The notes under the pieces were generated by a model that worked only from the letters and a program-made list of their open reading frames with translations, did not search any database and was not told the origin of the DNA. A stretch of 62,902 bases of DNA from Pelagibacteraceae bacterium AG-404-N13 (GTDB lineage Bacteria > Pseudomonadota > Alphaproteobacteria > Pelagibacterales > Pelagibacteraceae): assembly GCA_003216255.1 (NCBI GenBank), contig QCJD01000007.1, positions 1 through 62,902 of the forward strand, read 5' to 3'. The translations under genes and the position numbers were made by a program. Numbering within the stretch: the first letter of the stretch is position 1; each line of letters begins with the position of its first letter. Positions 57,345-59,200 of the stretch are shown here, piece by piece.

Positions 57345-57434
57345 AAAGAAACAGATAAGATAGCAGCTAAAAAAGCTAATATAAAATTTAGTTTTACTGA
57401 AGCTGGTTTAGAAATTATTTCAAAAAATATTTAG
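57345..57434 (+). pseudogene. Possible 3' gene remnant
   Basis: A 29-codon stretch without a start codon reads KETDKIAAKKANIKFS and continues to FTEAGLEIISKNI, then stops. A TAA lies just upstream in frame. The composition looks coding-like, and its end overlaps the recombinase gene. It may be the end of a gene disrupted or displaced here. Very short, so weak. Confidence 0.3.
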
Positions 57435-58345
57435 ATTTTAATTTTATTTAATGCATTGTTTTTAAATAGATTTGCTTCTTGGATATATCTTCTTACCATT
57501 TGCGTTGTTTTATGGCCTGTCATTGCCATAATACTTCTTTCATCTGCACCGATTTCAGCTGTAGATGTCGCAAATCCAGATCTTAAACTATGACCTGCGT
57601 ATTTTGTTTTATCCAACCCGGCTAATAATGCATATTTTTGAATTGTTAAAGCTACTGTTTTGTCAGATATATTGAATACTTTACCGTTGTTAATTTTGGC
57701 ATGTGTAATCCATTCTTTTAAAGATATAACAGGACAATAGATTTTATTTTCGAAGTAGGGGATTGCCTTGGTCATTCCTAGACCAGTTTGGTCTGTCTTT
57801 GACCTTCTTACCAATATTTTTACCCCTTCATTTACAAAATCAATATCCTCGTACTCTATTGATACTAATTCTGATCTTCTAAAGCCTCCTGCAAATCCAA
57901 TTAACAATAAAGCTCGATTTTGATATTTTTTATATTTATTTTTTTCTTCATCTATTACCTTTATAATTAATTTTAAATCATTGATTAATAATGGTTTTTT
58001 AGATATTTGTTTAACTCCCATCTTTCTTTTTATTCCCATTAAATTTTCAGCAATGATTGGATGTTTTATATCGATATAATGCCCTTTTAATCTATGAATA
58101 ACTTTTATTGAGGCTAATCTTCGTTTTAAAGTACTAAATTTACTAAAAGAGCTTAAATGAGTTAGGTATAAAGCTATTATTTTTGGATCACTTGGCATTG
58201 ATGAAAAGCCATTTTTTGAACAGAAACTTGAAAAATCTTTGAAATCAGATTGATAGGCTCTTAATGTATTATTAGCTTTAGAATTTTTTAAATTCTTTAA
58301 AGTTTCTAATTCAAGGCTTTTAACGTCTGTTATTAGTTCATTCAT
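57431..58345 (-). CDS. Tyrosine recombinase/integrase
   Basis: Site-specific recombinase of 304 residues from the preferred start. The N-terminal SAM-like core-binding domain has NTLRAYQSDFKDFSSFC and FSTLKRRLASIKVIH. The catalytic residues are the Arg in GGFRRSEL, HSLRSGFATS (HxxR), TGHKTTQMVRRYIQ with the His and nucleophile Tyr. An ATG at 58363 would add six residues but has no ribosome site and lies in the loop of an inverted repeat; the ATG at 58345 has GGAAA eight bases upstream. No other mobile-element genes are adjacent. Confidence 0.92.
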   Translation of the reverse strand: MNELITDVKSLELETLKNLKNSKANNTLRAYQSDFKDFSSFCSKNGFSSMPSDPKIIALYLTHLSSFSKFSTLKRRLASIKVIHRLKGHYIDIKHPIIAENLMGIKRKMGVKQISKKPLLINDLKLIIKVIDEEKNKYKKYQNRALLLIGFAGGFRRSELVSIEYEDIDFVNEGVKILVRRSKTDQTGLGMTKAIPYFENKIYCPVISLKEWITHAKINNGKVFNISDKTVALTIQKYALLAGLDKTKYAGHSLRSGFATSTAEIGADERSIMAMTGHKTTQMVRRYIQEANLFKNNALNKIKI

Positions 58346-58349
58346 ATAT

Positions 58350-58376
58350 TTTCCGATAACCATTAATTATCGGAAA
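58350..58376. repeat. Inverted repeat at the recombinase start
   Basis: Arms TTTCCGATAA (58350-58359) and TTATCGGAAA (58367-58376) are perfectly complementary across a 7-base spacer. The geometry fits either a tyrosine-recombinase core site or, in the recombinase mRNA, a hairpin whose 3' arm holds the GGAAA ribosome site before the ATG at 58345. Confidence 0.7.
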
Positions 58377-58468
58377 TATTATATTAAGTTATTTTTAATG
58401 TCAAGCTTTAATATTAAGCGTCTTTTTAGGTATTGCTTTATAATATTTAAGTAATATTTAATATTATT

Positions 58469-58633
58469 ATGCCAAAATATGTAATTATAGCTCTAATTGT
58501 TGTCATTGTAACCTTCATGATAATGAATTATTGGCCAAAATTAAAAGAACAGACCAAAAATCGCATATTAATGCTAATATTTGGTGTTTTTTTCTTAAGT
58601 ATTTTTGTCCTCTTATATCTCTTAATGTTTTAG
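58469..58633 (+). CDS. 54-residue two-helix membrane protein
   Basis: An ORF starting MPKYVIIALIVVIVTF and ending FVLLYLLMF, with two hydrophobic helices separated by a basic loop (PKLKEQTKNR). No clear ribosome site is seen. It ends seven bases before the structured RNA region, which could be its 3' UTR. Family not recognised. Confidence 0.55.
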   Translation: MPKYVIIALIVVIVTFMIMNYWPKLKEQTKNRILMLIFGVFFLSIFVLLYLLMF

Positions 58634-58782
58634 TTTAACTTTTCCCCAATATTAACAGGTGTTAAAAAGTTAATAAATTCAACAATAAAGTGATACTTAC
58701 AACCTGTGACTTTTGATAATGTACAAAATGAATTAAGAGGCAACTCTTAACTGACCATCTGGGGAAAAATCGAAAGATTCAA

Positions 58783-58877
58783 GAACAGAGGGCAGAAAAC
58801 TCTACAGAGTAGCGCTAAAATTGTAGAGTGAAAGGCATGGCGGTAGCGCATAAAACGACGTGCCAAAACTACTGTTC
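58783..58877 (+). promoter_or_regulatory. Candidate three-way-junction aptamer-like domain
   Basis: P1 is 58783-58788/58872-58877, P2 is 58799-58806/58822-58829, J2/3 is GAAA, and P3 is 58834-58839/58859-58864. Both terminal loops contain GTAGCGC followed by AAAA (58809-58820 and 58843-58855), and their GCGC parts could kiss. The 3' strand of P1 is also the 5' arm of the terminator, so P1 and the terminator exclude each other. Confidence 0.5.
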
Positions 58878-58915
58878 TTTGCACCTTAAAAAGTGCAAGG
58901 AAACAGGGTTTTTTT
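58872..58915 (+). terminator. Intrinsic terminator before the MGMT-family gene
   Basis: CTGTTCTTTGCAC pairs with GTGCAAGGAAACAG, with one bulged A and an 8-base loop. Seven T residues follow (58909-58915). The lower stem CTGTTC (58872-58877) can instead pair with GAACAG at 58783-58788. Confidence 0.85.
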
Positions 58916-58924
58916 CTTTATTGT

Positions 58925-59200
58925 ATGATCTTAAAAGGTACTAAATTCCAAATAAAAGTATGGAATTATTTAATGAAAATCCCTAAGGGCAAAGTAAAAA
59001 CTTATAAACAAGTTGCAAAAGGTATAAATATGCCAAAATCAGCTAGAGCAGTTGCTAATGCATGTGGCAAGAATCCTTATTCACCAAAGGTGCCATGTCA
59101 TAGAGTAATAAGATCTGATGGAAGTATAGGCGGATATTCAGGTCCTGGTGGATCAAAAACTAAAAAAAAACTATTAAAAAAAGAAGGTTTTTTGCTCTAG
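58925..59200 (+). CDS. MGMT/Ogt-type alkyltransferase domain protein, single domain
   Basis: A 91-residue protein that consists only of the DNA-binding domain of O6-alkylguanine-DNA alkyltransferases: GTKFQIKVWNYLMKIPKGKV, RAVANACGKNP and the active-site PCHRVI with C58. The N-terminal domain of Ogt/MGMT is absent. Alkyltransferase-like (ATL) proteins are also short but carry Trp at this Cys, so real transfer activity is plausible. The start lies ten bases after the terminator T run. Confidence 0.9.
   Translation: MILKGTKFQIKVWNYLMKIPKGKVKTYKQVAKGINMPKSARAVANACGKNPYSPKVPCHRVIRSDGSIGGYSGPGGSKTKKKLLKKEGFLL

Follow-up and report, generated by a model that had tools for sequence, protein, structure and literature searches.

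The window, the whole 62,902-nucleotide stretch of Pelagibacteraceae DNA analysed here, contains at 58724-58915 of the forward strand a complete gene for the small RNA IMES-2, a family already known and listed in the Rfam catalogue. The gene order around it is that of the window's genus: a tyrosine recombinase (57431-58345, - strand, PF00589), a small ORF, IMES-2, an MGMT gene, and a transporter. An Rfam scan matches IMES-2 (RF02035) at 58726-58866(+) over the full length of the model (1-141/141) with 154 bits against a curated cut-off of 54.7, the sole non-tRNA match in the whole window, and our own 192-position model, R1, places the copy at 58724-58915(+) with 207.7 bits (1-192/192). The consensus helices P1-P4 are retained, with two non-pairs in P2 of this copy and covariation of all helices in relatives, and the source is a marine bacterium, the named loci belonging to Pelagibacteraceae and Pelagibacter. 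The preliminary description had called the RNA one of unknown type and had itself listed an Rfam hit to a known RNA among the findings that would overturn it, which the RF02035 match does. It was right that this is not tmRNA, RNase P, SRP, or 6S RNA: ARAGORN and Rfam found no tmRNA (tRNA-like domain, tag frame) in the window, and the Rfam scan found no window match to 6S RNA (RF00013). What we add to the known family is the anatomy of the gene, its pattern of presence and absence, and its promoter. Weinberg and colleagues reportedly described IMES-2 in 2009 among several marine RNAs and are said to have found it very abundant; to our knowledge, no function has been assigned to it since 2009. 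In the literature that we searched, which left the 2009 Nature papers outside, the names IMES-1 and IMES-2 were not found in use for this RNA. The features of the locus are as follows.

58637-58657, + strand: footprint A, a pair of direct boxes spaced by about 10 bp, DnaA-box-like, a candidate activator site (from conservation)
58675-58696, + strand: footprint B, consensus TCAACNATAAAGTGATAC, covering the -35 position (78-89% mean identity across genera)
58714-58720, + strand: likely -10 element TGATAAT, 17-18 bp after footprint B (T, G, T, and A columns 92-100% conserved; position)
58724-58915 (approximate; Rfam core 58726-58866), + strand: transcribed part of the IMES-2 small RNA gene (Rfam RF02035 and model R1)
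58733-58750, + strand: P1 hairpin with a GCAA tetraloop (99.8% of cells paired; 5 of 7 pairs changed on both sides)
58751-58795, + strand: P2, a long arm interrupted by internal loops, its tip at 58768-58779 capped by a GNRA loop (both partners changed in 9 of 11 pairs of the lower stem and in all 4 of the tip)
58799-58829, + strand: P3 hairpin with a 15-nt loop (both partners changed in all 8 pairs)
58812-58817, + strand: P3 loop side of the kissing helix, GCGCTA, pairing with 58844-58849 (95.3% of cells paired)
58834-58864, + strand: P4 hairpin with a 13-nt loop (99.6% of cells paired; 5 of 8 pairs changed on both sides)
58844-58849, + strand: P4 loop side of the kissing helix, TAGCGC, the partner of 58812-58817
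58872-58915, + strand: intrinsic terminator, a stem at 58872-58906 with one bulge followed by TTTTTTT at 58909-58915 (13 pairs covary)
58925-59200, + strand: MGMT-like gene (DNA-binding domain), outside the RNA (PF01035, E 3.6e-33)

The forward strand of 58640-58925 folds with -74.2 kcal/mol (z -4.4, with none of 200 shuffles equally good), and the opposite strand reaches a z of -2.1 against its shuffles. A coding reading of that opposite strand, as a 45-aa ORF, was rejected, its frame being broken by single-base indels between relatives. For pair counts, 26 relatives were aligned from the 5' start to the U tract and made into the 192-position model, which was then used to gather 91 copies for pair statistics. 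Across these 91 relatives, 96.0% of the cells of the 57 named pairs hold standard pairs, in an alignment fitted to nested pairs that favours such pairs, against 36-41% once the 3' partners are shifted along by 1-3 columns; changes on both sides occur in 47 of the 57 pairs against 31 +/- 2 in shuffles. In both the 26-relative and the 91-relative sets covariation lies well above both controls, so that the covariation check among SAR11 homologs that had been proposed has been run and passed. Both of the GNRA tetraloops that had been noticed are present, GCAA in P1 and, in P2, GAAA in the window copy and GAGA in most relatives; the two P2 non-pairs of the window copy (58762-58763 against 58784-58785) fall where most relatives pair.

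The P3-P4 contact is a separate matter, since a nested covariance model is incapable of representing a loop-loop helix. Its six pairs are absent from the model to which the 91 copies were fitted, yet 95.3% of their cells are paired, in the distinct combinations GCGCTA/TAGCGC, GTGCTA/TAGCAC, GTACTA/TAGTAC, and GCACTT/TAGTGC. Six complementary bases within loops of 13-15 nt, with GCGC self-complementary in most copies, could instead join two molecules, so that IMES-2 would work as an RNA dimer or a larger RNA-only complex. We consider this quite improbable: in several lineages the loops lack self-complementarity (GCACTT/TAGTGC) and P3 still matches P4, and a linker of four bases sets P3 beside P4, favouring contact within one molecule.

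At its 3' end the region closes, as had been described, in an intrinsic terminator, whose 13 pairs are paired in 95.9% of cells and have all changed on both sides among the 91 relatives; the outer arm covaries from CTGTT/AACAG to CTGAT/ATCAG. In other genera, quite different hairpins stand at this position, the function kept and the sequence replaced.

The 5' end is another case. A large structured RNA had been proposed over 58640-58915, and while a real fold occupies the roughly 190 nt of 58726-58915, the first third (58640-58725) is not RNA structure. The helices that had been drawn with it are kept in just 39-55% of cells in relatives: 55% for TTTTCCCC with GGGGAAAA, 39% for ACAGGT with ACCTGT, and 43% for TTTTG with CAAAA. 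For the core helices (P1, P3, P4, the outer stem of the terminator, and the kissing helix) the figure is 94-100%. A further proposed pairing, AAGAACAG (58781) with CTGTTCTT (58872), reaches 66% in the same alignment and is likewise not upheld. Identity over 58640-58725 is uneven, with three blocks common to genera and stretches near 50% between them. Since the order and spacing of these blocks fit an activator site, a -35, and a -10, we read the 86 bases at the 5' end of the proposed RNA as a dedicated promoter, predicted from conservation and placed before the RNA start.

Footprint A, the candidate activator site, consists of the boxes TTTTCCCCA-ATATTAACAG in the window and TTATCCACA...TTCACAG in relatives; many of its columns show 88-100% identity in a set of 25 non-redundant relatives, compared with about 50% for the sequence further upstream. 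Footprint B has a zero-mismatch match in this genome at IMES-2 alone, and no clear second site for block B or for the double box was seen elsewhere, counts being near those of reversed-pattern controls. The likely -10 element at 58714-58720 was not called by a simple sigma-70 scan. Of 42 non-redundant upstream regions, which share descent, 29 contain the DnaA box TTATCCACA with one mismatch or none, against 2.1% of shuffles, and the window's own DnaA-like box has two mismatches. For these reasons, and because a consensus match is not binding, we offer only as a hypothesis, and a somewhat doubtful one, that the expression of IMES-2 is set by a DnaA-like factor acting at footprint A.

An alkyltransferase gene does lie just downstream, as had been described, and this holds within one genus, the only one in which MGMT adjoins IMES-2; other genera have mnmA, rmuC/selO, or SNase/SRAP genes there instead. 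Thus mnmA stands beside IMES-2, with a convergent gene downstream, at nine loci in other genera (L046, L053, L209-L213, L215, and L216), while IMES-2 lies between selO and rmuC at L057 and L214 and between a nuclease gene (SNase) and an SRAP gene at L058 and L059. A leader or riboswitch acting in cis would be expected before a conserved gene on its own strand, and what follows IMES-2 elsewhere is other genes, often convergent. Because its neighbours differ in other genera, the conserved function of IMES-2 cannot be a cis role on MGMT, and the suggestion that it could be a free sRNA was sound: IMES-2 is very probably a free-standing RNA that acts in trans. A 5' leader or attenuator of MGMT, with a terminator before the start codon that is read through under some condition, would fit the one genus in which the order is conserved and no more than about 10 bases lie between the terminator and the MGMT start. 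As an account of the family it is very improbable, given genera in which MGMT is not there and, in several, the next gene is on the opposite strand, and given relatives that lack IMES-2 and keep MGMT directly behind the small ORF. A secondary effect on MGMT is possible, since within that genus the RNA always lies just before it.

Several other features of the neighbourhood can be recorded. The neighbours of IMES-2 in three genera include genes of DNA-repair or recombination type (MGMT, SRAP, and RmuC, in the window and at L057, L058, and L059), probably by chance. The small ORF at 58469-58633 encodes a 54-aa membrane protein with 37-85% identity in several relatives and no Pfam match. The stretch 58380-58925 varies in relatives (L064, L068, L069, and L071-L073), holding the small membrane ORF, an acetyltransferase-like gene (by eye), IMES-2, or combinations of them. 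Directly before the tyrosine recombinase gene, at 58350-58376, is a perfect inverted repeat, TTTCCGATAA-CCATTAA-TTATCGGAAA, and relatives show the same layout with arms of 10-14 bp, a centre of 7 bp, and a second arm type, ATTACTATTGATAA; the arrangement resembles a dif-like site belonging to a one-recombinase system.

IMES-2 is an accessory gene: there are close relatives that lack it at this very locus, with the flanks intact. A match is present in 200 of 397 sampled Pelagibacterales genomes, in a single copy each, including 75 of 151 good genomes, and a class-wide draw of 385 genomes yielded a match in three only, all Pelagibacteraceae and all already known. We searched 20 good genomes that belong to the same genus and gave no Rfam match; our own model found no credible copy in them (two hits, about 12.8 bits, E about 0.6), and in the ten of these 20 where MGMT was located, pairwise alignments show the small ORF or another gene running straight into MGMT with IMES-2 absent. 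Together, the model search and the clean absence in synteny speak against a divergent copy in these genomes. On a tree of MGMT and the transporter, the negatives are interspersed with carriers, some of them next to close ones, so that IMES-2 has been repeatedly lost or gained, a pattern that recombination of the flanks could exaggerate. That close relatives can do without it speaks against a housekeeping role. Phage and plasmid origins were also considered and rejected: IMG/VR (searched by exact pattern) and 50,697 phage records gave no match, and neither did plasmids.

How might such an RNA act? RNA polymerase would start near 58726 at the dedicated promoter, a start position that we infer, and would stop at 58915 at the intrinsic terminator, giving an RNA of about 190 nt. 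This RNA would fold into P1, the long P2 arm, and the neighbouring hairpins P3 and P4 with their loops paired together, and would act in trans rather than on its neighbour, as a compact scaffold that may bind and titrate or modulate a protein. Protein binding may well be what IMES-2 does, although we hold this tentatively; we favour it because the fold, the tetraloops, and the loop-loop contact are conserved and because no Hfq or ProQ was found that would support pairing with mRNAs. Pfam profiles detected Hfq (PF17209) in 0 of 8 SAR11 genomes, by a profile that can miss a very divergent Hfq, and ProQ (PF04352) in 0 of the same 8 (G000, G001, G003, G005, G011, G015, G017, and G026), with the controls detected in both searches. 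A host of an Hfq- or ProQ-dependent sRNA should encode one of these proteins, and with neither detected, pairing in the style of Hfq or ProQ is unlikely. SAR11 may be without the usual sRNA machinery.

Antisense pairing with mRNAs, through single-stranded linkers and the 5' tail, would agree with a free sRNA that has a U-tailed terminator and with short conserved single-stranded linkers (AGAAAG, CAAAACTACTG). In addition to the failure to find Hfq or ProQ in the 8 SAR11 genomes, however, the kissing helix occupies the longest conserved loops, and relatives differ in the extreme 5' tail; we regard such pairing as rather unlikely. Since that tail varies while the compact fold is kept, a protein-binding RNA fits better than a pairing sRNA. 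One protein to consider is RNA polymerase itself, which a functional replacement of 6S RNA would bind, adjusting transcription to nutrient state. IMES-2 has a similar size, a single copy, and a dedicated promoter, and 6S RNA (RF00013) was found in 0 of 16 SAR11 genomes at E <= 10 by a search that does detect it in Caulobacter and E. coli. But genomes lacking IMES-2 gave no 6S match either, which means that IMES-2 does not simply stand in for 6S, and the fold has several hairpins and a kissing contact rather than a single long stem with a central bubble, which makes the replacement improbable.

The broadest form of the protein-binding reading, to which we give little credence, is an accessory global regulator: a protein-titrating RNA with a DnaA-driven promoter, taking roles of 6S and Hfq-dependent RNAs and repeatedly lost or gained between sister strains. 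If true, a bacterial group that is among the most abundant in the ocean would have such a regulator. Given the complete anatomy, the loop-loop contact, the promoter footprints, and a locus where closely related SAR11 genomes either have IMES-2 or lack it, natural comparisons and pull-downs become feasible with no need of genetic tools for SAR11.

Among known RNAs, IMES-1 (RF02034) belongs to the same marine naming series and has a similar length; it was matched in none of 12 SAR11 genomes, carriers and non-carriers of IMES-2, in a search whose control was silent, and was set aside on that result as a substitute in IMES-2-negative genomes. 6S RNA (RF00013) is likewise free-standing, in single copy, and of similar length, but differs in fold. 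GOLLD reportedly comes from the same 2009 discovery paper as IMES-2. Like IMES-2, the ornate RNAs GOLLD, ROOL, and OLE are structured bacterial RNAs, but they are much larger. They form RNA-only complexes (PMC12286853), which we think quite improbable for IMES-2. The closest likeness is to the IMES-2 motif (RF02035) itself, with a full-length match far above the cut-off, the same four helices, and a marine SAR11 source; its nested Rfam model is without promoter, terminator, and P3-P4 pairing, all three of which are added here.
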